Part shown: positions 343 to 45,990 of the stretch, piece after piece
Layout: every line of letters starts with the position of its first letter
Numbering within the stretch: the first letter of the stretch is position 1
Assembly (NCBI RefSeq): GCF_002572525.1
Contig: NZ_PDBS01000001.1
Coordinates: 2,914,001-2,978,000, forward strand
Source of the DNA: Natrinema sp. CBA1119
GTDB taxonomy: Archaea; Halobacteriota; Halobacteria; Halobacteriales; Natrialbaceae
Direction of reading: 5' to 3'
DNA length: 64,000 nt
Made by a program: the position numbers and the translations under genes
Notes under the pieces: model-generated
Database searches by the model: none
Told to the model about the DNA's origin: nothing
Seen by the model: the letters and a program-made list of their open reading frames with translations, nothing else

Positions 343-1191
343 ATGCGTCGAATCGACCTAACGGTTAAACCAGAGGGCTCGTTCCCGGTGCCGACCGCGA
401 ATGGCTACCAGATCTACGGCGCGGTTCTCTCGGCGCTCGATGGTGTCGACGAGGACGTGAGCACGCGCGTCCATGATTCCTCGATCGGGAGTCTGACGAA
501 CAGCGGCCTCCTCGGGACGTTCGACGGAAGCAATCGCGACCACCACAAACGCGTAATCCGCGACGAGACGTACGATCTCAAGTTGGGCGTCGCCGATCCC
601 CGCGACCAAGAGGTCTTCCAAGCACTCGCCGACGCGTTCGTCTTCAGCGACGATACTCTCGAACTCGCGGACGGCGACTTCCGCGTGCGCGACTTTGCGA
701 GCACGAACACAACCCACGAGGACCTCCTCACTGAAGCCTCAGAGATCGCCGCCCGGTACCACAACACCTTCGAAATTGAGGTCCGCTTCGAGACGCCGAC
801 GTGCATCAAAGAGAGTAGCAATATAACTAACATGTTTCCCGCGAGGCAACACGTATTCGCCTCGGTACTGCGAAAATGGAACGCGACGATCCCGGACGAG
901 CGGGCAGACGAGTTCGAGATTGCGATGACCCGTGAGGACTTCGGGACGAACCTCATCGAGAAACCCGACGCGGACACCTACGAGACGGATAGCGTCCTCG
1001 TCAACCGCGGCGAGGATGGCGGCCCGATCCTCCGCCAGGGGTTTACCGCCGACTGCACGTACAAGTTCAAGGACGCGAGCGAAGCCATCCGGACCGCGGT
1101 GACAGCGCTTGCGCTCTTCAGCGAGTACGCCGGCATCGGCGCGTTCGTCTCGCGCGGCTGTGGGACGGTCTCTGTGGAGGTGAAAGAATGA
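343..1191 (+). CDS. cas6: Cas6, CRISPR repeat endoribonuclease
   Basis: Cas6 cuts the long CRISPR transcript inside each repeat to give mature crRNAs. The 282-aa length fits. The C-terminal stretch YAGIGAFVSRGCGTV (about residues 261-276) is the glycine-rich loop typical of Cas6. It starts the cas operon and is followed by the type I-D effector genes. The next reading frame overlaps its stop by ATGA at 1188. A short AU-rich patch (about 810-830) with rare codons sits in the middle. The start at 343 gives the usual N-terminal MRRIDLTV strand of the first ferredoxin fold. Confidence 0.85.
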   Translation: MRRIDLTVKPEGSFPVPTANGYQIYGAVLSALDGVDEDVSTRVHDSSIGSLTNSGLLGTFDGSNRDHHKRVIRDETYDLKLGVADPRDQEVFQALADAFVFSDDTLELADGDFRVRDFASTNTTHEDLLTEASEIAARYHNTFEIEVRFETPTCIKESSNITNMFPARQHVFASVLRKWNATIPDERADEFEIAMTREDFGTNLIEKPDADTYETDSVLVNRGEDGGPILRQGFTADCTYKFKDASEAIRTAVTALALFSEYAGIGAFVSRGCGTVSVEVKE

Positions 1192-1316
1192 GGGTCCAGA
1201 ATGGGTTTTTAGATAACAGGATCGGCACTGCCACTATTTCAATCCCGTCTCGGACCCTGATGGGAAATGATGGGGCACACCCATATGGGAGATCGACCAA
1301 GGAGAAGCTGAAATGA
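1188..1316 (+). other. cas6-cas10d spacer: 42-codon ORF with a repeat-like sequence (possible crRNA-like RNA)
   Basis: This is the only long gap inside the cas operon. A 42-codon frame fills it exactly: its ATG overlaps the cas6 stop and its TGA overlaps the cas10d start, so it could couple translation of both neighbours. On the minus strand, 1253-1236 reads CCGAGACGGGATTGAAAT, close to the 3' half of the CRISPR repeat (CCCAGAACGGGATTGAAAC) with the crRNA handle almost intact. In haloarchaeal type I-B loci, crRNA-like RNAs (CreA of CreTA, and CreR autorepressors) are encoded beside cas genes; this is a candidate for such an RNA. The predicted peptide resembles nothing known to me. Confidence 0.4.
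1236..1253 (-). ncRNA. degenerate CRISPR repeat half (psi-repeat)
   Basis: Read on the minus strand, the 18 bases end in GGGATTGAAAT, matching the array repeat end GGGATTGAAAC except for the last base. The sequence after it (AGTGGCAGTGCCGATCC) would be the guide if the RNA is loaded like a crRNA. There is no second repeat copy within the 122-bp gap, so processing at the other end is unclear. Confidence 0.4.
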
Positions 1317-3781
1317 CCCACGACACACCCGCCTCAGCGGCCCGCTACGCACACCGGTACATCGTGGATACGCCGCTCATCGGGAACGTCCTCGAGCACG
1401 CGGGCGAGTACGACGCGAAGACGGAGCCGGAAGAGACGACGTCGCTCGCGGCCCACATCATCAACGCGATGACGGTCGGCGTGAACACCTTCGTGTACAA
1501 CGCCGTCGACGGCGGCCGCGACATCATGGAACTCGAAGAGGAACTCTCGGTGCTCGCGGCGGCGCTCGCGCTCCACGACACGAACAAGTACGTCCGCGAG
1601 GCGTACGGTGTCGAGACGGACGGGAACACGAACGAGGCCTTCGACGCCTACTTCGAGAACGGCGACGACTTCGGCGTCGAGGAATTCCTCGGCGAGGGCT
1701 ACCGCGACGACCTCCACTATCTCGTCCAGCGGACGGAGGTGAACGAGGACAGCCGTGAAACCCGCGGAACGCAGACAGAGTTCGCCGGTCTCGATCGGTA
1801 CTGTCAGATTGGCGATCAAGTTGCATCAGTTGTCCTCCGAGACGGTATCAAGGGTGGGTTCGGCAAACTACGCAAGAAACTCGACGACAACGAGGTCCAC
1901 CTCCTCGAATTGACACAGATTGAACAGCCGATCCTCAACGACGAACTCCTCGGCGCGACGAAGGAAGTCATGTCCGGTAAGGACGGTGGCGAGGAGTACG
2001 GCGTCGTCGTCGGGAGCACGCCCGATCGCGTGCTGTACCTCGGCGACGAGGTCGACCGCGACGTGCTTCGAGAACGAACATACGAGAGGGCTAAGCAGAA
2101 TCTTACTGACAATGGCCCATACTCGTTCTCCTGTAAGCTTGGGTGGAACAGTTTTAATTACGATGTTCTTGGTGAATTGAGCCTACCAGTCGAAGAGAAA
2201 ATAGAACAGATTCGTCGGCAAGCTGTCGATCTACTCAAATCCGATGCAGGAGGTATCGAACCACTTGAAAGAGTCCCCGAGGGCTTTGAGGAATACCTTC
2301 CAGGCCTCATCAAAGCAATATACGTTGATGGAGTCGGTGATTTTGATGATAGAAAGTTACAAGACAGATACGAGGAAGTGTATAATTCTATTGAGGGTGG
2401 AAAGAGCACAAAAGGCCAAAAAATAAAACTAGAGTTCATAACAGAATTGGCGAGAAGCTACCAAGAGTTTTCAGGAGAACTTGATTGGCTTCAGAAAAAA
2501 TATGAGCCGAAGCTGAAAGAAGATCTTAAGCCATCAGTAGACGCAATACTCGAATCTGTTAGCGCTCTGTTCGAAATACAGAGCAATGTAGGGATTCCAG
2601 ACAAATCCGAGATGTGCTATCTCTGTGGAAAGCAAACTGAGACCAAGTACCAGAAGGGGCAAAGTGCAGTGTATCGATCATATGAGTTCTCGAAACGTGT
2701 ACCACCCCACGGCGAGTACAAGAAGATCTGCGAGGTGTGTAACCTCGAGTACGCGCTCCTCGCTGACACGTGCGAACGCGCCGACGTCAACCTGAACTCG
2801 AACGTCGGCGTCGCGTACTACTACTTCGACGAGTTTCTTGGAGACATCCGTCTCCGTGGTGGACGCGTCGGCCTCCAGCAGGGCGAGACGATCGACCTCA
2901 GCGACACGGAGGTAGAAACGAGTCTCCTCCGGCCCCAGTACTACGTCCAGCCGTTCAATTTCGGTGGACATCCCGCGATGGGCGAAAAGAACCACCGGAT
3001 GGTCATCGTTCGACAGCTGATGCAGGCGGCACAGGACGCCGGCATGAAGGTCGTCCTCGGCCGCCCGTTCACGCGCTTCGAGAGCTCTAATGCGGCGTTC
3101 GTCGATGAGGATGCGATCCGCCAGCAGGAACTGCTCGATCTGGACGTAATCGATCGGTTCGGACCGCTCCCGTCGTTCGCCGACCGTAACGACGGACACG
3201 AGCAGTCGCACCTCCGACGTGCGCTCGCGCTCTGCAAGATCATCGCTACCATCGGTCAGGAGGCGGGGATGCGGAATTCCTATCTCCAACTCGACCGAGA
3301 CACGTTTCACCACCTCGCTAACTTCGCCGTACAGAACCACGATAACGCGACTCACCTCTCCGACCTCGAGTCGTATCTCGAAACCTACCACACGGCCCAA
3401 CTCATGGACATGAAAACCGTCGCCGAACGAGGAGTCGACCTCTTCGGCGAACAGTACGACAGCAAGTACAAGAAGACGAAAATCTTCCGCGAGGCGATCG
3501 ACGCGTTCCTCAGCGGGAAGAACCAGCGGATGTCCGATGACGACCTCCGCGAACACGTCGCGGCACAAGTGTACGACGCGGCGGACCGCGAAGACTACGC
3601 CGGCTACGTTACCGTAGAAGAGGCGGAAGAGTTCGTCGACGCCCTACAGGCATATCTCGTCGAGAACGATCTCGACTCCCTCAAGAAACTCTCCGACTGG
3701 GAGAACGCGCTCGTTAACTCGTACCTATACGCCTACGAACAGGTTTTGTACGAGGACGATACCGAATCGTCCGATAACTAA
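1313..3781 (+). CDS. cas10d: Cas10d (Csc3), type I-D large subunit with HD nuclease
   Basis: This is the large effector subunit of type I-D complexes; unlike type I-B, the HD nuclease sits here and not on Cas3. The 822-aa protein has His48 and the HD pair at 88-89 (LALHDTNKY) in an N-terminal helical domain, and a zinc finger formed by C435/C438 and C473/C476 (CYLCGKQ and CEVC). The start ATG overlaps the TGA of the small upstream frame. A striking AT-rich block at about 2090-2690 has codon use unlike the GC-rich flanks, suggesting that the middle domain was swapped in by recombination. It would bind DNA with Csc2 and Csc1. Confidence 0.82.
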   Translation: MTHDTPASAARYAHRYIVDTPLIGNVLEHAGEYDAKTEPEETTSLAAHIINAMTVGVNTFVYNAVDGGRDIMELEEELSVLAAALALHDTNKYVREAYGVETDGNTNEAFDAYFENGDDFGVEEFLGEGYRDDLHYLVQRTEVNEDSRETRGTQTEFAGLDRYCQIGDQVASVVLRDGIKGGFGKLRKKLDDNEVHLLELTQIEQPILNDELLGATKEVMSGKDGGEEYGVVVGSTPDRVLYLGDEVDRDVLRERTYERAKQNLTDNGPYSFSCKLGWNSFNYDVLGELSLPVEEKIEQIRRQAVDLLKSDAGGIEPLERVPEGFEEYLPGLIKAIYVDGVGDFDDRKLQDRYEEVYNSIEGGKSTKGQKIKLEFITELARSYQEFSGELDWLQKKYEPKLKEDLKPSVDAILESVSALFEIQSNVGIPDKSEMCYLCGKQTETKYQKGQSAVYRSYEFSKRVPPHGEYKKICEVCNLEYALLADTCERADVNLNSNVGVAYYYFDEFLGDIRLRGGRVGLQQGETIDLSDTEVETSLLRPQYYVQPFNFGGHPAMGEKNHRMVIVRQLMQAAQDAGMKVVLGRPFTRFESSNAAFVDEDAIRQQELLDLDVIDRFGPLPSFADRNDGHEQSHLRRALALCKIIATIGQEAGMRNSYLQLDRDTFHHLANFAVQNHDNATHLSDLESYLETYHTAQLMDMKTVAERGVDLFGEQYDSKYKKTKIFREAIDAFLSGKNQRMSDDDLREHVAAQVYDAADREDYAGYVTVEEAEEFVDALQAYLVENDLDSLKKLSDWENALVNSYLYAYEQVLYEDDTESSDN

Positions 3782-3800
3782 TCCTATTCACTGATCCACA

Positions 3801-4742
3801 ATGACACTCACGTACCCCGAAACCGGCCTCGTCGACTCGTTCGAAATCTACCGCACGCAGAAGCCGAGCGTCACGCTCGTCGTCGAACGCGAGATTACCG
3901 AACCGACGCTGTTCCGCAACTCCAACAACGACCGTGCGGAGACCCAACAGTTCGGTGACCAGTTGCACGCACAGGTGAACGGTGAGAAGTTCACGAGCAA
4001 GGAGCGGCTCAGCGGTCTCGACCTGCTCCGGTCGCTCGACGACGAACTGGTCGGCGACGAATACACGTATAACGAACCTGCGACGCTCGACGAGTCGATC
4101 AACGTCGGAACGCTCACGTACGGCCTCGCCGGCACCGGCGACCAGGACTTTGCGATCAAGTCCCGCGTCATCGAGGGCTACACGTACACGACCGACGAGT
4201 ACGACCTGATGAACAAGGAGACCCGGAACGCGGTGTACGAGTCCGGGACGATGCGTACTGACGAGAACGAACAGTCCAAAGCGCTGTTCGACTACGTCAA
4301 AGTCCAACCAGGGAACTCGCTCGTCCACTTCGTCACGCTCGAAGCCGCGACGGGACCAATGCTCCTCTACGCGCTCCACAACGTTCTCAACACGGGACGG
4401 TACGGAGCCCGCGAGACGCGGACCGGGCGTAATGTCCGCAACTCGATCCGTGGCGTTATCCTCGGTGATCACGACACATCGCTCTCGACAGGAGAGCTCC
4501 TGATGGAATACCACGAGGAGGACAACGAGGTCGGGGACAGTATTGCTGAATATGTCGAGGACGTCCGCCGAACCGACTGGGAGGTTTACGGCGACTTCCA
4601 CGATGCGGACGCATTCCCTGAGTGGTACGAGGGGATGCGGGCCGTGGCGTCGCGGGAGACTGACGACGCCGACGAGATCCTCCTAGAGGAATTCGGTCGT
4701 CTCACCGAAGCGGCGACGGACGTGTTCAGTGCCGATGATTGA
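3801..4742 (+). CDS. csc2: Csc2 (Cas7), type I-D backbone subunit
   Basis: Csc2 forms the helical filament that holds the crRNA in type I-D complexes. The 313-aa protein has the family pattern LVHFVTLEAATGPMLLYAL followed by RYGARETRTGRNVRNSIRG (about 180-218). It lacks the N-terminal DANPNGDP-like motif of type I-B Cas7, which is the main reason for choosing subtype I-D. It starts 19 bp after cas10d and its end overlaps csc1, consistent with one operon. Confidence 0.8.
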   Translation: MTLTYPETGLVDSFEIYRTQKPSVTLVVEREITEPTLFRNSNNDRAETQQFGDQLHAQVNGEKFTSKERLSGLDLLRSLDDELVGDEYTYNEPATLDESINVGTLTYGLAGTGDQDFAIKSRVIEGYTYTTDEYDLMNKETRNAVYESGTMRTDENEQSKALFDYVKVQPGNSLVHFVTLEAATGPMLLYALHNVLNTGRYGARETRTGRNVRNSIRGVILGDHDTSLSTGELLMEYHEEDNEVGDSIAEYVEDVRRTDWEVYGDFHDADAFPEWYEGMRAVASRETDDADEILLEEFGRLTEAATDVFSADD

Positions 4743-5436
4743 GCAGACGTACGAGGCACAGCTGTACGCTCCGCTGTTCTACTCGAGCGCGGAGGGGAGG
4801 TCCGTCCGGACACAGCCGATGCTATCCGCGACCGCACTTATGCACGCGATCGGCTACCGGTACTGCGGCCTCGAGAAGCGGTACGCACTCGTTGGCGACG
4901 ACGCGACATCTCCTTCGTACGATCACCTCCGCGAGCTACCGCTATTCGTGAGCGACATGCGCCCAGTCGCTGTCAAGGCCGATGAACGGACGTTTCGGAG
5001 TACCGACTACCGCTCCGAACGGCACTTCACGACGGCGGATCCGAACGTTGCCGAACAGGTGACCGGTGGGAAGTCAGTCCCGGAGGTTCTCGAACGCTCG
5101 GGTGCCGGCTGGCAGACCATCCGCCGATATCACGGCCTCTCACCCGGATCAAAATTTGAATTCACCGTCTGGAGTGACGAGCCCCTTCCAGAGCGGCCGT
5201 CGTTTCGAATGGGTATCGGACAAACGGGGGAGTTCCGCGCGAGCGAAACCGACCTCAACCAGCTCGTACTGAACGAGTTCCTCCTTGAGGAAGTCTACGA
5301 CCTCCCGACGGAGACGCTCAGCGAACTCTTGGAGCGGAGCGACTCGTTCAAGCGCGGTAACGATCCTCGACTCCAGCACTTCGTCGGCGTCGATCCGAAG
5401 TACGCACGTGAGACGATCATCCCGGAGCTGAGCTAG
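4735..5436 (+). CDS. csc1: Csc1 (Cas5), type I-D subunit
   Basis: Csc1 is the Cas5 of type I-D and caps the 5' handle of the crRNA. The protein is about 233 aa. Its N-terminus (YEAQLYAPLFYSSAEGRSV) has the Cas5 strand-plus-loop arrangement, followed by PMLSATALMHAIGYRY. I prefer the ATG at 4735 over the in-frame GTG at 4729; either overlaps csc2 by a few bases. The stop touches the cas3' ATG at 5437. Assignment rests largely on position and size, supported by the N-terminal pattern. Confidence 0.75.
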   Translation: MIEQTYEAQLYAPLFYSSAEGRSVRTQPMLSATALMHAIGYRYCGLEKRYALVGDDATSPSYDHLRELPLFVSDMRPVAVKADERTFRSTDYRSERHFTTADPNVAEQVTGGKSVPEVLERSGAGWQTIRRYHGLSPGSKFEFTVWSDEPLPERPSFRMGIGQTGEFRASETDLNQLVLNEFLLEEVYDLPTETLSELLERSDSFKRGNDPRLQHFVGVDPKYARETIIPELS

Positions 5437-7320
5437 ATGCGTGTCCGGAGTGCCACGCTTGCGACTGAACCGCCCGCCGAGGGGTTCGCTGAACGGGACT
5501 TCGACCACGCCCGGGCGTTCCAGAACCGCATCGCCGAGTGGGCGCACGACGACGCCACGGAACCGGTCGGTGTCCTCCGAGCACCGACCGGTGCGGGGAA
5601 GACCGCGACGTTCTACGAGGTGGTCAAGGAGAACGCCCTGACGCTCGTCGTCTACCCAACGAACGCACTCCTTGACCAACAGCTCGAACGGTTCCGCGAG
5701 TGGGATGATATCAGCGCTGAACCGCTCAATGCCGACACGCTCACCGGTCACGGAGACGAACGCGTCGAGAACCTCCTACAGCATGCCGACCGCTTCGAAG
5801 GCCACGACGTCGTCGTCACGAACCCCGATATCTTGCAGGCGATCATTCAGGACATGTATCAGGGTTCGACGAAGCCGATGGCGTTCTTCAACCGTTTCGA
5901 CGCAGTTGTCTACGACGAGTTTCACTTCTACGACGATCTCGCTGCGAGCGGGCTCCTCCTGCAGATGCACGTCATGCACGACCGGCGCGGAACGGACATC
6001 CTCCTCGCGTCCGCAACGCCGAACGAGTCGTTCGTCGAATTCGTCGAGGACGAACTCTCGCTCCCAGTCCGAGACATCACCGCCGAGTACGTCTCTGACG
6101 GCGATCAGTTCCGCCAGCCGGTGACCGTGGACAGACATGAGGCCCGTACGATCGCCGAGGAGCGGGAGGCCGTCGCGGAGCGTCTCCAAGAACTCGTCGA
6201 CGACGCTAACGACCTCAACGAACCGCAGGTCGCGCTCGTATTCAACAGCGTTGCCGCAAGCAACGACTTCCACGCGTATCTCGCGGAGGTGTTCCCCGAA
6301 GTGTTCGAACACGCCGTGAAGGACAACGGGTTCGACACGAACGATCCGGACGCGGATCTCAAGTCCGGGAATTTCTTCGTTCTCAACACGACAAGCAAGG
6401 GTGAAGTCGGATTGGACTACGACATTCAGACGCTGTTCATGGAGACTCCGGCAACGCCGAGCGCGTTCCTCCAGCGGTTCGGACGTGCCGGCCGGGAGCA
6501 CGAAGCAATCGTCCACCTGTTCGGCCTCGGCGATATGGCGTGGCCGGACGAAATGAGCTATCTCGACTTCGTCGACTCGATTTACGACGCGCTCGGAGCG
6601 CATCGAAGCCGAGACGAGGAGATCGCGACCCTCCGAAGTCTCGTCGGGATGCGTGGGGCGTACGCGATTCACTCTCGGATGGCCGACGACGAGTGGTTTG
6701 GACCGGAGCTGTTCGAGGACTTCGAGTCGGTCTCCGAGTACGGAAAGTGGCGCGCGTTCTTCCGCGCCGTTGACTCGACCTTAGAGAGTGCCGGCGAGTT
6801 CGGGTCCCCAATCATGCAGAACAGCTCCACCCGGAAAATACTCGACTTCGCACGACACTGTTTCGGGACCTTCGAGAGCCTCCGTGGCCGCTCGTTACCT
6901 GTTGACATTCGGTATCCACGGGGTGACAGAGAGGCGCTCACGTCATACGACCTCTTGACGACGCTTCGATACTACGACATCGAGAATATTGAGTCCGACG
7001 GGACACTCGTCGTCAAGCGTCGAGGCTCGGAGCAACCGGTCGCGGTCACCGCTCGATTCCCCGGGTACAATAATCGACCACGTGACTACAGTGGTTCCAA
7101 CAGCGGGATCGAGGAAATGTTCTCCCGGTGGATCTACCCAGAGATCGAGGATTCCGATCTCACCGAGACAGAAGTCGACGAGGGTGTACTTCGCCAGTTT
7201 TTCTCCGATCTCTCGCTACCGAAGGCGGTGGTGCCGATCGAAGTCCGATACGGCCAGTACGCCGCATACGTCCAACAGGACGGAGTCACGTCCGTGGACA
7301 TCGAGCGCCGCCAAATATGA
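5437..7320 (+). CDS. cas3: Cas3' helicase, type I-D (no HD domain)
   Basis: This SF2 helicase unwinds target DNA after recognition. The 627-aa protein has Walker A APTGAGKT (49-56), motif Ia (VVYPTNALLDQQ), a Walker B variant YDEFH (about 159-163), SATP (about 192) and a motif VI-like QRFGRAGRE (about 347-355). No HD nuclease domain precedes the helicase, as expected for type I-D, where the HD is on Cas10d. The TGA overlaps the ATG of the cas1 remnant, where cas4 would normally start. Confidence 0.85.
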   Translation: MRVRSATLATEPPAEGFAERDFDHARAFQNRIAEWAHDDATEPVGVLRAPTGAGKTATFYEVVKENALTLVVYPTNALLDQQLERFREWDDISAEPLNADTLTGHGDERVENLLQHADRFEGHDVVVTNPDILQAIIQDMYQGSTKPMAFFNRFDAVVYDEFHFYDDLAASGLLLQMHVMHDRRGTDILLASATPNESFVEFVEDELSLPVRDITAEYVSDGDQFRQPVTVDRHEARTIAEEREAVAERLQELVDDANDLNEPQVALVFNSVAASNDFHAYLAEVFPEVFEHAVKDNGFDTNDPDADLKSGNFFVLNTTSKGEVGLDYDIQTLFMETPATPSAFLQRFGRAGREHEAIVHLFGLGDMAWPDEMSYLDFVDSIYDALGAHRSRDEEIATLRSLVGMRGAYAIHSRMADDEWFGPELFEDFESVSEYGKWRAFFRAVDSTLESAGEFGSPIMQNSSTRKILDFARHCFGTFESLRGRSLPVDIRYPRGDREALTSYDLLTTLRYYDIENIESDGTLVVKRRGSEQPVAVTARFPGYNNRPRDYSGSNSGIEEMFSRWIYPEIEDSDLTETEVDEGVLRQFFSDLSLPKAVVPIEVRYGQYAAYVQQDGVTSVDIERRQI

Positions 7321-7969: not shown

Positions 7970-8085
7970 CGTCGGCTTTCGTCGACCTTTTTTAAAGCCG
8001 TGTACAGCAGGGGTCCACGAGAGCGAGCCGCGCTGTCGTGGGTAGAGTAAGGTTTATGGACTCGCTCGAACAAAAATCACCCCCT
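7970..8085 (+). promoter_or_regulatory. CRISPR leader and array promoter
   Basis: The 116-bp stretch between cas2 and the first repeat is the leader side, because repeats read toward the crRNA handle ATTGAAAC on the plus strand and the degenerate repeat is at the far end. A TATA-like TTTATGG at 8053-8059 lies about 27-33 bp before the first repeat, a fitting distance for array transcription. A T-run (CTTTTTTAAAG, about 7987-7997) could end the cas transcript. Confidence 0.6.
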
Positions 8086-9360
8086 GTCGCAGGGCGGTAG
8101 AAACCCAGAACGGGATTGAAACATCATCTCTGGTCTCAACTCTCTGGGTCCCATGAAATGTCGCAGGGCGGTAGAAACCCAGAACGGGATTGAAACCGTT
8201 TGCAGTCCCTCCGACGTTGCACTGCGTCCACGGGTCGCAGGGCGGTAGAAACCCAGAACGGGATTGAAACGACTCGGTGGAATGCTCGAGTCGTCCATGT
8301 CCAAAGACGTCGCAGGGCGGTAGAAACCCAGAACGGGATTGAAACACGTAGGTGATGCTATGGGTGACGTTGCTCAGAAGTCGCAGGGCGGTAGAAACCC
8401 AGAACGGGATTGAAACCGACCTCGAGATAATCCCGCCCGGTGATGAAGTTACGTCGCAGGGCGGTAGAAACCCAGAACGGGATTGAAACAATATCACCGA
8501 CGCACCACAGGATTTCGCCGATGGGAGTCGCAGGGCGGTAGAAACCCAGAACGGGATTGAAACAGGACGTGACGCCGACTTAGTTCCTGAGTCAATTCCG
8601 TCGCAGGGCGGTAGAAACCCAGAACGGGATTGAAACAACCGGACTCGGTGGAACTCTCGGAAGCCGAACGCGTCGCAGGGCGGTAGAAACCCAGAACGGG
8701 ATTGAAACTTCGTGGTACAGTCCGAGTCGCCGCATCACGCGGTGTCGCAGGGCGGTAGAAACCCAGAACGGGATTGAAACAACGGTGAAGACCTGTCGAA
8801 ACGCGGGAAGCTCGCGTCGCAGGGCGGTAGAAACCCAGAACGGGATTGAAACATCGGGTGCCGTGGCATCGGCTCCAGGAGGCGCTCGTCGCAGGGCGGT
8901 AGAAACCCAGAACGGGATTGAAACTCAGGTAATCCTCACTGGATGGGAACCCGGGGTACTGTCGCAGGCTGGTAGAAACCCAGAACGGGATTGAAACTGT
9001 TGCCGCCAGTCCTCCAGCAGCATGTACTTGAAGTCGCAGGGCGGTAGAAACCCAGAACGGGATTGAAACTGGCAAGAAGATATCGTGAATGAACGGGCTG
9101 ACGGGGTCGCAGGGCGGTAGAAACCCAGAGCGGGATTGAAACTGGCAAGAAGATATCGTGAATGAACGGGCTGACGGGGTCGCAGGGCGGTAGAAACCCA
9201 GAGCGGGATTGAAACTGGCAAGAAGATATCGTGAATGAACGGGCTGACGGGGTCGCAGGGCGGTAGAAACCCAGAACGGGATTGAAACACGAAGTCGCCG
9301 GCCCCGTAGCGACTAGTGTTCCCGTCGCAAGGCGGTAGAAACCCAGAACGGGATTGAAGC
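8086..9360 (+). CRISPR. type I-D CRISPR array, 18 repeats of 37 bp, 17 spacers
   Basis: Repeats begin GTCGCAGGGCGGTAG and end ACGGGATTGAAAC. They start at 8086, 8160, 8234, 8309, 8380, 8453, 8527, 8600, 8672, 8744, 8816, 8888, 8961, 9033, 9106, 9179, 9252 and 9324. Spacers are 34-38 bp. Repeat 13 has CTGG for GCGG; repeats 15 and 16 share an AGAGCGG variant; the last repeat is degenerate (GCAAGG, end GAAGC), which marks the old end. Spacers 14, 15 and 16 are identical (TGGCAAGAAGATATCGTGAA...), leaving 15 different spacers. Spacers 3 and 8 share GACTCGGTGGAA plus further bases. Long peptide frames across the array are artefacts of the repeat. Confidence 0.98.
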
Positions 9361-27510: not shown

Positions 27511-27601
27511 CTCCGCAATCCACCGCCGATGGCAAGGCCGGATATTCCACCGGTAAACGACCACGGGTCGGGTGACCCGTGGCTTTTCTAATTCCCTCAG
27601 C

Positions 27602-28918
27602 CTACGTCGTAAGCACTCCACGCGAAGCGATTTCGCGGGATGAGGATGGGCGATTTACAGAGCGCCCCGACCCAGACAGGCTCACCTTCCGAACAAATGG
27701 TTGGGTTTTGCGAGTCCGGTAATTAATCGATTCAACGTCTATGCCAGCGTGTTTCGCCCACGCTCGCCACGCTACATTCACGCTCGCGTTTCGGTCAGCG
27801 TGGTCTTGCTGAACCTCGCACGAATCATTCGTACAGTGGAACCGCCGACCTTGGCGGTAGCCACGGTGTCCACAGCACGAACACGACTTCGAGTTGTAGC
27901 AACTGTCTACCGTGTCCGTGGGGATCTCGTTCCACGTCGCCTTGTACGAGACGAATTTCTCGAACTTGTGGAACGGTAGTTTGTGCAGTCTACGGTTCAT
28001 GTATGTACCGTATTTGATCTCGTCGCGGATACCTTCCATATCCTCGAACACGATGACTGGGTTCGAGAACTGTTGGGCGAACTCCACCACGATTCGGGAC
28101 ATTCGGTGGAGAATCCACTCGGTGTAGCGTTCTTCTTTCTCCCCGAGTTGGTGGTGGATGGAGTATTGGCCGTGTTCTTGACAGCGTTTGGTGATGGTGT
28201 GGTAGCGTTGGCGTTCGGCTTTCACCGAGCCGTAGTCAAGCACGAGTGTTCCGAGAGTGTCCATCGTCTCACGATTAAGAGCGGTGAGGGCGATGTTGCG
28301 CTCATTAATATCTACGCCGACGAGTGTGTCAGCGTCTTCTGGTTCAGGCACTTCAACCTCTGTTTTGACCGTGACATGTAGGTAGTACACGCCATCTCGG
28401 TACAAAAGTTCGGCCTGCCCCAACGACCACTCGTCATCCGTTAAGGCCGACTCGATGTGATTGAGGTCTTCCGGTCGCCCTCGAAGGTGTCCTTTCACCT
28501 TCTTGTACGGCTTCGGACTCACACGGAACTGAACGCGGTCGTCCTCTTCGTTGTAGGTGAGTCGATAACCTTCGGTGTGCGCCATAACGAGTGGGTATGC
28601 TCCCTTCTTGTCCGTGGCGGGTGGCGACGGTTTCCCGGCGTTGGTGTCGTCTTGGTCGTGCCACCAATTGAGGAGTTCTTTGTAGGAGTCCCACGCTTGC
28701 AGGGCTTTCCCGACGACTGCACACTTGTTGTTCCGCAGGAAGTCATCGCGGTCAACTTCCTTCTGAATCTCAGTGCGAGAGTAGCCTTGTTGCTTGAGTT
28801 CGAGAGTGTCGTTGGAGATGTCTCGTGCGGTGAAGCGGGCATCTTTGAGCCACGACCGCTCACCAGACTCTATGCAGAGTCGGGTGCGTGCGGTCTTCGT
28901 GACTTCTTCGATACCCAT
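27602..28918 (-). CDS. tnpB: TnpB, RNA-guided endonuclease of IS605
   Basis: The 438-aa protein is complete. RuvC residues: Asp in LVGVDINERNIALTAL, Glu in VIVFEDMEGIRDEI, and Asp in QQDHADRNASVNVA; zinc knuckle CSCCGH and CTNDSC. In active TnpB, an omega RNA from the element's right end guides cutting at the donor site. All key residues are present, so it may be active. Confidence 0.88.
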   Translation of the reverse strand: MGIEEVTKTARTRLCIESGERSWLKDARFTARDISNDTLELKQQGYSRTEIQKEVDRDDFLRNNKCAVVGKALQAWDSYKELLNWWHDQDDTNAGKPSPPATDKKGAYPLVMAHTEGYRLTYNEEDDRVQFRVSPKPYKKVKGHLRGRPEDLNHIESALTDDEWSLGQAELLYRDGVYYLHVTVKTEVEVPEPEDADTLVGVDINERNIALTALNRETMDTLGTLVLDYGSVKAERQRYHTITKRCQEHGQYSIHHQLGEKEERYTEWILHRMSRIVVEFAQQFSNPVIVFEDMEGIRDEIKYGTYMNRRLHKLPFHKFEKFVSYKATWNEIPTDTVDSCYNSKSCSCCGHRGYRQGRRFHCTNDSCEVQQDHADRNASVNVAWRAWAKHAGIDVESINYRTRKTQPFVRKVSLSGSGRSVNRPSSSREIASRGVLTT

Positions 28919-41890: not shown

Positions 41891-41979
41891 TCTCAATTTC
41901 AACGTGGTACCCAATGTGGCCGACCCCGAACCTCACCGAAATTACTATAAGACACAAGGAGCTACATTGAGACACAACT

Positions 41980-42363
41980 ATGCCGGTCCACCTTGACACT
42001 CACGAACCCGATGTCGAACTCACGCCTGGGACAGCCAAATCCGACATAATCGCATTCCTTTACGACAACACCGAACTCGGCTTCAAACCCAAAGAACTCG
42101 AAGATCACCTCGAACTCCCTCATGGCACCGTCACCACAACGCTCACCCGGCTCTACAACGACGGCTTCATCGGGAAAACTCGGGACAGCCACTACCACGC
42201 GCTCGAACACCGTGAAGACCTTCGCCGGTACGTCGCCAGCCTCGACCAGCTGGAGAGAATATTCGAAGACAGAGAATACGTAGGAACTCCAACGGAAGAC
42301 GTGGACGAAGACGAGCTTGACGCCGAGATTGCCGAGTTAGAAGCCGAGCTAGAGGATGAGTAA
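41980..42363 (+). CDS. winged-helix antitoxin-like protein
   Basis: The 127-aa protein has a winged helix (TAKSDIIAFLYDNTELGFKP, then LELPHGTVTTTLTRLYNDGF) and a very acidic tail (EDELDAEIAELEAELEDE). It overlaps the MazF-like gene by 8 bp (ATGAGTAA). The position suggests it is the antitoxin, here with a winged helix in place of a MazE fold. Confidence 0.75.
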   Translation: MPVHLDTHEPDVELTPGTAKSDIIAFLYDNTELGFKPKELEDHLELPHGTVTTTLTRLYNDGFIGKTRDSHYHALEHREDLRRYVASLDQLERIFEDREYVGTPTEDVDEDELDAEIAELEAELEDE

Positions 42364-42697
42364 ATACCCGATAGGGACAATCTGTTGGGCGGTTGACCCA
42401 ACCGGTGCCCACAAACAACGTCCTGTCGTTATTCTCTCACACGAAAAACACCCATTTAGCGCCAGTGACTGTACAGTAATGTGTATCGGGACAAGTGCCG
42501 GTGACTACGATCACTACTCACCAGAACTCAAAGACAAACACCTCTCAGGGATCAGTTTCGACGAAACGAATTACCTTATGCCATGGGCGCTCCACACGAT
42601 CCCTCCTGGTGGACTCATTACCACTCAAACAGGAGAGCTTACTGAGGACGGCGAGAAACTCGTGAAACAAGCCCTCCTCTCCCTCTTCAAGGTTTGA
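42356..42697 (+). CDS. PemK/MazF-like toxin
   Basis: The 113-aa protein has the MazF/PemK fold signature: IGTICWAVDPTGAHKQRPVV then ILSHEKHPFSASDCTVMCIG, and a later strand WALHTIPPGGLITTQTGEL. The Arg-Pro of QRPVVI and the following Ser/Thr residues are typical of this mRNA-interferase family. It is coupled to the upstream antitoxin gene. Confidence 0.75.
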   Translation: MSKYPIGTICWAVDPTGAHKQRPVVILSHEKHPFSASDCTVMCIGTSAGDYDHYSPELKDKHLSGISFDETNYLMPWALHTIPPGGLITTQTGELTEDGEKLVKQALLSLFKV

Positions 42698-42769
42698 CAT
42701 CTTCCCCTCACCTGAAGATGCGGGAATCCCAACCGCGTTGGGAGACTAACCCGTCGAACGACTTCTCAA

Positions 42770-43060
42770 CGCACCACCACGTACCGCGCAGCTCCGTGCC
42801 CCGCGGGGTGACTCGACCATTCTCTCGATGGTCGCCTGGCCGCCGTTCGGGGACCCCCGGCGGTCGTGCCGTTCCTTCCTGCGGGAGTAGCCGGTGACAA
42901 CAATGACGGCTTGGTCCCTCATCCCTACGACGACGTGGTGGGGTTGGGTAGACTGCCTTTCCCATGCACCCTACCCGGAAACCCCAATTTGAGAATTGAA
43001 GACCAATTACCGAGGACTGCACAGGTTCAAATCCTGTCGGTGGCCCGTCCATCGAGAACA
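42770..43060 (+). other. hairpin-rich segment with a tRNA T-arm-like element
   Basis: Several hairpins are packed here: CCCCGCGGGG, GACCATTCTCTCGATGGTC (about 42816-42834) and CCGCCG/CGGCGG (about 42841-42864). At 43021-43037, ACAGGTTCAAATCCTGT forms a perfect T-arm (5-bp stem, 7-base loop), followed by CGGTGGC, as at a tRNA 3' end. No matching 5' half is visible. It could be a tRNA remnant, an attachment site or part of a structured RNA. The protein frame across it is not convincing. Confidence 0.45.
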
Positions 43061-43180
43061 TCCTGGACAAAGAGAGCACGAGGGTGCTCTCGACACCGGA
43101 TCCCGCCCCGACAGTTTCCCGGTCACCGTGTCGCCAGTGGTCGTCGAACCGGAGCGATACTTCAATGGCACTCTACGCGT

Positions 43181-44113
43181 GGCGATTTCGACGATTATCC
43201 CGACATCGAACCACTGCCGTCGCCCAACACGTGGGAGACAGTCATCTCCGAACGCGGCAACACCCGGGACGCCTGGAAGATTCTCATCGAGAGCGAGGAG
43301 CACTCGCTGCCGCTCTTCGCGTCAATCCGGAACCTCCGGAACATGCTCGAAGCAGGCGTCGACGAGGACACCGTGGTGGGTCATCTCGACCTGAAGGCGG
43401 TGCAGCACGCGCCGCTGTACCCGTTCCGGTACTACCAAGCGTACACCGCGCTCCAGAATGCTGACGTCCAAGCACCGGCGGTTGAGCAGTGGCTGGAGGA
43501 GACAATCGATGTCGCTGTCGAGACGGTGCCTGACGGAATCGGAGAAACGTTCGTCGCTGTGGACCTCTCAGGATCGATGAACATGGCGCTGTCCAAGAAC
43601 AGCACTCTCCGCCCGAAAGAGATCGGTGCGTTGTTCGGTGTGATCCTAGCCGACCAAGGTGCCGAGGTTAGCGGGTTCGGTGACGACTTCCAGACCGTTC
43701 CGATGCACGTCGACACGCCAGTACTACAGCGGCAAGACGCGGTGCTGGCCATCGACGAGGAAGTCGGGAACTCGACGAACGGCTGGAAGGCACTGGAGTA
43801 TCTCCGCAACCGAGGCGAACCCGTCGAGCGAGTCGTCGTCTTCACCGACATGCAAATCTGGGACAGCACACCATTCACCGCGCGCGATAACCAGACGGTC
43901 AAGGAGGCGTTCGATGCGTATCAGAACGAGGTCTCCACGGACACCTCACTGTATCTCGTCGATCTGACGTCCTACGGCGACCTCGTGACGCCGGAAGGCT
44001 ACGAGAACGTCTACAACGTTTCCGGCTGGTCAGAGAACATCCTCTCGTTCATCGAACACGCCGAAAGCCCGAAGCAAGTCATCGATGAGATCAGCGCGTT
44101 CGAGGCAACATAG
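43181..44113 (+). pseudogene. Ro60/Rsr (TROVE-vWA) gene, 5'-truncated
   Basis: Ro60 is a ring-shaped RNA-binding protein that holds Y RNAs and misfolded RNAs. The frame begins in the late TROVE domain (NTWETVISERGNTRDAWKIL; FASIRNLRNMLEAGVDED; PFRYYQAYTAL) and has the complete vWA domain with MIDAS motif ETFVAVDLSGSMN and VERVVVFTDMQIWDS. About 250 N-terminal residues of the HEAT-like ring are missing. The frame stays open back to 42866, but that part shows no family match and overlaps the hairpin-rich segment. A short functional version cannot be excluded. Confidence 0.72.
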
Positions 44114-44140
44114 CGCTAGCTCCTCATCTTTCTTCGTCGA

Positions 44141-44213
44141 GCGCGAGTAGTGTAGTTCGGTATCACGCGGTCGTGCCACGACCGAGACAGGCGTTCGAAT
44201 CGCCCCTCGCGCA
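44141..44213 (+). tRNA. tRNA-Gly(GCC) or tRNA-like RNA
   Basis: A cloverleaf can be drawn: acceptor GCGCGAG/CTCGCGC (7 pairs), D-arm GTGTAGTTCGGTATCAC, anticodon stem CGGTC/GACCG with loop GTGCCAC (anticodon GCC at 44175-44177), T-arm GGCG-TTCGAAT-CGCC and discriminator A. The outer T-stem pair is A-C. It lies 27 bp behind the Ro60 remnant on the same strand. In bacteria, Ro60 genes are often beside Y RNAs, some of which mimic tRNA, so both readings should be kept open. Confidence 0.75.
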
Positions 44214-44273
44214 CTCAGAGCGCAGCTCGTGGAACAAACAGCCCGAGCGACGCTCTTCAACAGAGGTAATATC

Positions 44274-44567
44274 ATGGCAATCACCAATGACAACGACCCC
44301 GGACCGACGGCGACTGCTGTCGTCACGATCCGTATCCCATGTGGCGCAGACAGTGATCTCGTCACCGACGCCGAAGAGCGCCTCTCGCGGGCCGAGAACA
44401 TCGATACTGTCACGATTGACGAGATGCGCGGTATCGATCCGAAGCTTTCGGCAACGGCCATCATTGTCAGCATCACCCTTCGCTGGACCACGACGATGAC
44501 TGATGCGGAGGTAAGTAGACGGCTCGCTGAGGTCCCCGGCCTTGAGTCAATCGAGCAGATCAGATGA
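44274..44567 (+). CDS. small hypothetical protein (97 aa)
   Basis: The protein starts at ATG 44274 behind AGAGGTAATATC. It reads as an alternating strand/helix fold: TATAVVTIRIPCGADSDLVT, ATAIIVSITLRWTTTMTDAE, SRRLAEVPGLESIEQIR. This is like a small ferredoxin-type fold. I do not know the family. It follows the tRNA-like gene, so it may belong to the Ro60 cluster. Confidence 0.5.
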   Translation: MAITNDNDPGPTATAVVTIRIPCGADSDLVTDAEERLSRAENIDTVTIDEMRGIDPKLSATAIIVSITLRWTTTMTDAEVSRRLAEVPGLESIEQIR

Positions 44568-44604
44568 GGCGTCATGAACACGCTACTCCCGACGATTTAT
44601 AGAC

Positions 44605-45990
44605 AGTGCGAGGCGAAAACCCACGGCTTTAGCCGTGGGATGAAGCCGACAACTGGGAACCAAACCACGCGACGGTGGCAGGCCGACTTCCCAGCGTTTA
44701 AGAAATATCAGACTCACATATAAGATATGGAGGTGCGGCGCACCGTCCCCGTTGCACTCAACGTGGGTAGTGACGACGCCGCACTCCTCGAAGACACCGT
44801 CGATACGTTCCGCTGGTCGGCGCAGTACGTTGTTGATCACGCGTTCCAAGGCGAGTACGTTACCACCAGCAAAACACAGTTGGACGACGAAACGTACGAC
44901 GACGTGCGCGAGAAAACAGACGGGTTCAACGGTGGTCTCGTGCAAGCCGCCCGCAACAAGGCCGCCGAAGCCTGCAAGAGCGTCGTCGCCCGCTGGCAGA
45001 ACGGGAAGAAAGCGTCCAAACCCACGTTCACCAGCCCACACGTTGTCTACGACAAGCGTACCGCGACGTTCCATGATGACTATGTGAGCCTCGCCACCAC
45101 AGACGGTCGGGTGGAAGCCGAGTACGTGCTGCCCGACGAGGACAGCAACACACCGCACTCCGAGTACCTATTTTCAGACGAGTACGAAACTACAGGTGCG
45201 GAACTGCACTATCGTGACGGTGACTGGGTGCTTCACATCCACTGCAAGACGGACGTGGAGTCTGACACGTCGGCACAGGCACCACCTGAGAACGGCACGG
45301 TTCTCGGGGTTGACCTCGGCGTGAACAACCTTGCTGTCACCTCGACTGGCACGTTTTGGACGGGCGACGAGTTCGACCACTGGCGGTGTGAATACGAGAA
45401 CCGTCGTGGATCGCTCCAGCAGTGCGGGACACGCTGGGCGCACGAGAACATCCAGTCCGTCGGTCGCAAGGAAGACGGACGATTCACGCTGATGCTGCAT
45501 CGAATCAGCAATGAACTCGTCGCGGAAGCCCGTGAGAACGGGTGTTCGGTCATCGTATTCGAGGAGTTGACCGATATTCGTGAGCGGACCGGTGCGTCGT
45601 GGGGGCACAAGTGGGCGTTCGACCGCTTGCACGAGTACGTCGAGTACAAGGCTACAGAATGCGGAATTGTGGTTGAGCAGGTTGACCCTGAGAACACCAG
45701 TCGGCGGTGCTCGCACTGTGGGTTCACGCACCCAGACAACCGTGACAGTGAGGCGTTCGAGTGCCTGAAGTGCGGGTACGAGAACCACGCGGACTACAAC
45801 GCCGCGAAGAACATCGGATTGAGGTATCTCCGTCGCAACCAAACTGGGAGCGATGGAGGCGCACCCTTGGGCGTGCGCTTGAACAGCGGGACGCTGAACG
45901 TGAACGGAGGGTATTCTCCTGCCACTGCTAGTGGCCAGAACGGGAGTCCACGCTGAATCCCACGACTTTAGTCGTGGGTAGCTCAAGCGG
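44605..45990. mobile_element. tnpB-only (IS1341-type) element
   Basis: The hairpins CCCACGGCTTTAGCCGTGGG (44620-44639) and CCCACGACTTTAGTCGTGGG (45959-45978) mark the two ends; tnpB lies between. No tnpA is present. Confidence 0.78.
44727..45956 (+). CDS. tnpB: TnpB, RNA-guided endonuclease
   Basis: The 409-aa protein is complete, starting [20 protein letters not shown]. RuvC residues: Asp in [16 protein letters not shown], Glu in [14 protein letters not shown], Asp in [14 protein letters not shown]; zinc pairs CSHCGF and CLKCGY. It differs clearly from the other TnpBs in the window, so several element lineages have entered. Confidence 0.88.

Follow-up and report, generated by a model that had tools for sequence, protein, structure and literature searches.

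In the window, i.e. the 64,000-nucleotide stretch of the Natrinema sp. CBA1119 genome analyzed here, a remnant of a TROVE/vWA (Ro60) gene is located at 43177..44113 on the + strand, where it corresponds to residues ~197-509 of the intact protein and retains the MIDAS residues of the vWA domain. The predicted product matches PF05731 (E = 3.5 × 10−14), only over positions 273-361 of the 442-position profile, and vWA_Ro60 (E = 2.4 × 10−7). Alignment to intact 509-aa proteins begins only at residue 197-199, codons 1 to ~197 being gone; the N-terminal part is therefore truly absent, in agreement with the earlier note on this DNA, which had described a TROVE/vWA gene without its N-terminal half. A tblastn search of the window with TROVE residues 1-200 yielded no convincing match (best E = 2.9), and no second TROVE copy was found in the whole window genome. 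At the breakpoint, the loop of a Y-type RNA element (Y3; ..CTACG) reads straight into TROVE codon ~197; thus, the window has lost the end of Y3, tRNA-Arg and TROVE codons 1 to ~197, and with these codons the presumed Y RNA surface, and the window Ro60, with residues 1 to ~197 absent, is not a complete ring with that surface.

Substitutions found only in the window copy comprise 30 nonsynonymous and 18 synonymous changes, compared to 29 and 60, respectively, in four relatives taken together (p = 0.001; five sequences compared across 311 codons), and, as judged from these counts, the window gene shows relaxed selection. This nonsynonymous excess argues against the truncated gene still having a functional product, such as a protein with the vWA domain alone, made from a 415-aa reading frame that extends across the Y remnant. 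In favour of such a product, this frame stays open between 42866 and 44113 and the MIDAS residues are retained; however, the fused form is present in none of the relatives read, and, towards its 5' end, the frame consists of RNA-gene sequence. A functional truncated protein is accordingly very improbable.

Upstream of the gene, the remnant of a second Y-type RNA (Y2) occupies 43022..43132 (+) and consists of a T-arm hairpin (43022-43036, CAGGTTCAAATCCTG), a second hairpin, a CCGG hairpin and the stem's 3' strand; the opposite (5') strand is lost. The T-arm-like element ahead of TROVE had been singled out in the earlier note and belongs to the 3' part of Y2: the Y2 model, R1, scores 78.5 bits over 42973-43132 (E = 4.3 × 10−19 in the 64-kb window; next best, 11 bits), and, by blastn, the stretch from 43022 (107-160 nt) is 81-93% identical to sequence that precedes TROVE in 18 of the 28 loci fetched from other genomes. 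Persistence of the Y2 5' strand in the window was considered and rejected: the stem positions are unpaired in the R1 match at 42973-43132, where the model forces the alignment across a broken stem, and blast similarity starts only at 43022. With the 5' strand lost, the closed stem of a Y RNA cannot form. Another model, R3, gave no match in window positions 41900-44700. Next to the Y2 remnant, what is left of the third Y element (Y3), its 5' part (43133..43177, +; GTGGTCGTCGAACCGGAGCGATACTTC), is fused to TROVE and aligns with the Y3 starts of relatives. The sequence 42698-43022 has no further copy in the window genome. An integration scar was rejected as the origin of the T-arm fragment, which has no second match in the genome even when up to 3 mismatches are tolerated and therefore does not duplicate a resident tRNA at an attachment site. 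The stretch had also been called hairpin-rich; this did not hold up, folding being no better than that of shuffled sequences (z = 0.31 for 42770-42910 and z = −1.31 for 42900-43049).

Downstream, as previously suggested, a tRNA-Gly(GCC) gene (44141..44214, +) begins 27 bp past the TROVE stop at 44113; it was identified by ARAGORN and by RF00005 (49.4 bits, gathering threshold 29) in a small-region search, the whole-window run at default filters not having listed it. A tRNA-Gly(GCC) gene is found in the same place, at most 200 bp after TROVE, in 32 of the 41 named loci. The alternative of a degenerate tRNA-like RNA was ruled out by the small-region Rfam run and was dropped because the larger runs had merely missed the tRNA; by sequence, the downstream RNA looks like an ordinary tRNA-Gly gene. 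Of the two RNA elements for which a relationship to Y RNAs had been proposed, then, the upstream T-arm element stands and the downstream one does not. The small protein after the tRNA, previously assigned to no known family, is a conserved cassette member of 97 aa (44274..44567, +), with tblastn homologues behind tRNA-Gly in 23 of the 28 loci (E ≤ 1 × 10−6) and with no Pfam or NCBIfam family.

The left neighbour of the break is a possible IS200/605-type element end (sot/omega RNA-like, sot0042; 42704..42748, −), with an RF02656 score of 22 bits, below the gathering threshold of 88. Elsewhere in the window, a sot2652 RNA (27539-27723, −; 93.3 bits) lies at the 3' end of a TnpB-like frame; positions 41980-42697 encode an HTH protein and a PemK/MazF-like protein (PF02452, E = 0.001, below the cut-off), a similar pair being annotated near the cassette on a Haloplanus plasmid; and repeated-peptide reading frames at about 8054-9075 suggest a CRISPR array, the adjoining large genes (343-7320) possibly being cas genes.

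Among 293 genomes of the same order, PF05731 was detected in 27, the window genome included, and intact 509-aa homologues were present in the 26 others, from which 28 stretches of 20 kb were taken. The usual order in these loci is tRNA array, Y1, Y2, Y3, tRNA-Arg, TROVE, tRNA-Gly and the ~97-aa protein, with tRNA arrays upstream in most loci (ARAGORN) and tRNA-Arg(UCG) nearest before TROVE in 31/41 named loci. The TROVE gene was also found on eleven haloarchaeal plasmid records. The occurrence of TROVE in haloarchaeal tRNA clusters is already published (PMC6333295, 2019): of 2481 archaeal genomes, 29 were reported to have haloarchaeal-type tRNA clusters, and TROVE was present in 20 of the 29. 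These are the same kind of loci, i.e. tRNA arrays with TROVE, on plasmids and in provirus regions, whereas the window retains one tRNA only; at least 10 tRNA genes define the range of that study, and many relatives have 10-26 upstream of TROVE.

The intact 509-aa protein combines a TROVE ring with a vWA domain (PF05731, E = 5.6 × 10−22, and PF25045). By sequence, it matches the Ro60 of phage phiLo (E = 1 × 10−46), Xenopus and human Ro60 and Deinococcus Rsr, and Foldseek retrieves phiLo, Xenopus and human Ro60 and Deinococcus Rsr (9kop, 1yvp, 2nvo, 9nen) with E values from 4.7 × 10−19 to 1 × 10−9, the AlphaFold model being only fair (mean pLDDT 69.3, falling below 50 at residues 159-186, where the Y RNA site is expected). 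The MIDAS residues, following the DxSxS...T...D motif as defined in PMC11277228 (D327, S329, S331, T398 and D422), are invariant in 14 of 14 aligned rows, the window included. In alignment A5, H182 is invariant as well; it aligns with the LTHPRP sequence of phage phiLo Ro60 and probably corresponds to H187, the Y RNA-contact histidine of vertebrate Ro60 (PMC4030889), the match to Xenopus H187 lying in an alignment segment that is not significant by itself.

Upstream of TROVE, all 28 fetched loci contain elements of 80-155 nt that have one covarying stem in common, made up of an 8-bp outer helix, an asymmetric internal loop of 4 nt (mostly UCGA) and 7 nt, a 9-bp inner helix and, beyond it, a UUCCUUC-like sequence. 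Three elements, assigned to Y1, Y2 and Y3 by order and by eye, could be obtained from 25 of 29 TROVE copies, and a few loci have more. Alignment and folding of Y1, Y2 and Y3 separately, with identical sequences removed beforehand, gave the same stem each time. The fraction of paired cells was 98.8% in Y1, 99.1% in Y2 and 97.8% in Y3, and 9/17, 10/29 and 13/32 pairs, respectively, changed on both sides, the sequence counts not representing independent events because many of the loci are closely related. None of 500 shuffles matched the paired-cell and both-side-change values, and slid control structures scored far lower; the count of additional pair types stood out less, with 5, 4 and 24 of the 500 shuffles reaching it for Y1, Y2 and Y3, respectively. 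Left out were L055 from alignment A1 (long insert), L053 (misbounded) and 8 distinct short Y3 forms from A2, and the long first element of L044 from A3. Thus, in three separate alignments and with covariation, pairing of the 5' end with the 3' end produces a stem interrupted by an asymmetric bulge region, as in Y RNAs in the broad sense.

Inside this stem, the three elements differ. The inner part of Y3 comprises a T-arm, a closed acceptor stem, UA and a D-arm with GG, i.e. a circularly permuted tRNA; in 8 distinct sequences, Y3 is shorter and does not have the complete module. The inner module of Y2 has a T-arm and no clear D-arm, and Y1 has no tRNA-like part in most loci. The Rfam YrlA model (RF02553) aligns to Y3 in permuted order, with 28.6 bits and, in L003, 32.4 bits (E = 5.2 × 10−4 and 3.1 × 10−5 in small searches). 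We do not file these RNAs under RF02553 because the best scores, 33.0 bits for a partial match in L106 and 32.4 bits in L003, are below the gathering threshold of 69.

The Y elements track the TROVE gene across genomes. R1 matches occur in 27 of the 293 genomes, 25 of which are TROVE genomes; both features are present in 25 genomes, only one in 4 (2 and 2) and neither in 264 (Fisher p = 1 × 10−31). In the two TROVE genomes that R1 does not match, R3 does so immediately upstream of the gene, and the inner helix and loop are retained there. Of the two genomes with R1 and without TROVE, G115 has a 28.7-bit, 64-nt match only. In the other, G185 (72% complete), the contig coordinates and score of the Y elements are identical to those of the named locus L100, in which the contig breaks off within TROVE, at codon 105; for this reason, we infer that G185 is not a true exception, although the Fisher table lists it among the discordant genomes. 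R3 matches, one or more per locus, are present in 28/28 fetched stretches, 39/41 named loci and 3/3 plasmid stretches, and all 93 R3 matches are on the + strand of the oriented loci; an R3 scan of the genomes with strict filters missed G000, G092 and G282. Of the two named loci without a match, one is a fragment of 138 residues and the other a copy without residues 1-17 and without upstream tRNAs. The search for the same RNAs beside complete archaeal homologues, which the earlier note had proposed, thus found Y elements encoded near Ro60 throughout the 28 loci; the pattern that would have spoken against the link, intact haloarchaeal Ro60 loci devoid of both RNA elements, is not seen in these loci or in the 39 of 41.

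In L037 and L093, Y elements are present with no tRNA array just upstream, such that the Y elements follow TROVE rather than the tRNAs. The persistence of Y elements beside TROVE in these two loci, and in the divergent TROVE loci L036 and L058, bears on the possibility that the whole arrangement is an ordinary tRNA cluster containing pseudo-tRNAs and that TROVE is only carried along in it, with no RNA partner. Both the association of tRNA clusters with TROVE and the commonness of pseudogene tRNAs in such clusters are published (PMC6333295) and would fit an ordinary cluster; the common stem, however, is not a tRNA feature, and we regard this explanation as having very little chance of being correct.

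More distant TROVE genes provide additional candidates. The virus HGTV-1 encodes a TROVE protein with 44% identity, in a region with RtcB. The best R3 match in HGTV-1 (21 bits, E = 0.017 over 143,855 nt) falls within the viral tRNA array, some 20 kb away from TROVE, in an unannotated 85-nt gap between tRNA-Leu(gag) and tRNA-Leu(tag) (NC_021328.1 45701-45785, i.e. L115 2202-2286, minus strand). In the predicted fold of this sequence, a C is opposite a U and the other strand has a 3-nt bulge (z = −3.54, 0/200 shuffles); by position and fold, it is a good Y RNA candidate, the score alone being weak. Around the HGTV-1 TROVE gene itself, R3 gave no match, Rfam gave no match in L102 11000-14200, and R2 gave a weak 16.1-bit match overlapping an annotated intron-bearing tRNA-Asp (L102 9022-9209), an annotation that may deserve a second look. 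R3 gave no match on L101, which carries a viral TROVE with 31% identity. In a phylum-wide search, TROVE was found in 14 of 344 genomes, five of which belong to another archaeal family. In that family, L106 (1202-1324) combines the partial 33.0-bit YrlA match with a T-arm-bearing stem upstream of TROVE, L109 and L110 (2519-2629, −) have a stem with a T-arm and an acceptor-like hairpin upstream of TROVE, L107 and L108 showed nothing comparable in the YrlA and R3 searches, and R3 reaches only 14.7 bits, in one member.

The position of the stems, on the same strand as TROVE, just upstream of it and between tRNAs in nearly all loci, would also be expected if they were cis-acting parts of a long tRNA-array/TROVE transcript, such as processing signals, attenuators or a self-regulatory Ro60-bound leader, rather than free RNAs. 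Against this, the whole 80-155-nt unit with paired 5' and 3' ends is conserved while the inner modules differ, a YrlA-like permuted tRNA domain is unexpected in a leader, tRNA-Arg usually separates Y3 from TROVE (31/41 named loci), and the HGTV-1 candidate is far from the gene. A purely cis-acting role therefore seems unlikely to us.

From the gene order, the covarying stem, the co-occurrence with TROVE and the decay of the window copy, the window is best read, with a probability of roughly 0.8, as holding a decayed copy of a mobile haloarchaeal cassette whose intact form combines Ro60 with tandem Y RNAs, usually two or three of them, and in most cases also with a tRNA array. The reading of the locus as a partly broken archaeal Ro60/Y RNA locus is supported by the intact relatives, which carry Ro60 and tandem Y-type RNAs; the alternative offered with it, a tRNA cassette that captured Ro60, is borne out as well, in that these relatives are tRNA-array cassettes and the window a remnant of one. 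In the window, a deletion took the rest of Y3, tRNA-Arg and TROVE codons 1 to ~197, and the left end of Y2 was lost too; as a result, neither half of the ribonucleoprotein can work.

In an intact cassette, Y1, Y2 and Y3 would be transcribed as RNAs, the stem with its UCGA/7-nt internal loop would bind the outer face of the Ro60 ring, and the variable inner module would give each Y RNA its speciality. The permuted-tRNA module of Y3 may recruit tRNA-recognising enzymes, as in bacterial YrlA, which recruits, and is modified and processed by, tRNA enzymes. By analogy with bacteria, the particle might take in structured RNA that is damaged or misfolded, tRNA fragments above all, or pass it on, and the beneficiary could be the plasmid or virus that also brings spare tRNAs. 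In bacteria, a Y RNA tethers Rsr to PNPase, and the rsr-yrlBA-rtcBA operon responds to tRNA damage (PMC7790460). Haloferax volcanii is without an exosome (PMC10470531); hence a haloarchaeal nuclease partner, if any, would not be the exosome, and aRNase J/RecJ or RNase R are candidates.

Reviews place Y RNAs in animals and some bacteria. In the literature searched, including PMC6333295, PMC4726728, PMC4030889 and PMC8651126, we found no report of an archaeal Y RNA, an earlier mention being possible; the main text of PMC6333295 does not mention Y RNA, Ro60 or non-coding RNA, and TROVE in Borg elements of Methanoperedens has been published with no Y RNA claim in the text seen. We consider it likely that Y RNAs exist in archaea, namely in mobile haloarchaeal tRNA-array cassettes with Ro60 and tandem Y RNAs, in the HGTV-1 array and, as YrlA-like RNAs beside TROVE, in a second family. 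The Ro60-Y ribonucleoprotein would then occur in all three domains and be spread by tRNA arrays, with permuted-tRNA Y RNAs lying among the tRNAs from which they may derive. If so, the Ro60-Y RNA pair of animals and bacteria is extended to archaea, where haloarchaea (with at least H. volcanii lacking an exosome) offer a genetically tractable setting for Ro60 function and for asking whether Y RNAs come from tRNAs. It would also provide a possible reason for TROVE travelling with archaeal tRNA clusters, and the models can annotate RNAs that are now missed, including the candidate in the well-studied HGTV-1.

Among known systems, the GOLLD RNA of mycobacteria (PMC9569102) is alike in being a large non-coding RNA carried with mobile tRNA arrays and differs in that the RNA is unrelated and TROVE is absent from that text. 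The bacterial Rsr/YrlA system (RF02553), like the archaeal cassette, joins a Ro60 orthologue to neighbouring Y-type RNAs, one with a permuted T-arm, closed acceptor and D-arm. By comparison, the archaeal system usually has two or three tandem RNAs with different inner modules inside tRNA arrays, scores below the Rfam gathering threshold, and has no rtcB among the annotated neighbours in three haloarchaeal plasmid stretches. The metazoan Ro60-Y RNA particle shares the 5'/3'-end stem with asymmetric bulges, and vertebrate Y RNAs carry CGA in the loop, which may thus resemble the haloarchaeal loop in sequence. The metazoan Y RNA has been described as a helix with a single bulged C and a 3-nt bulge opposite (PMC4726728), much as the HGTV-1 candidate is predicted to fold, whereas the haloarchaeal internal loop is 4/7 nt.
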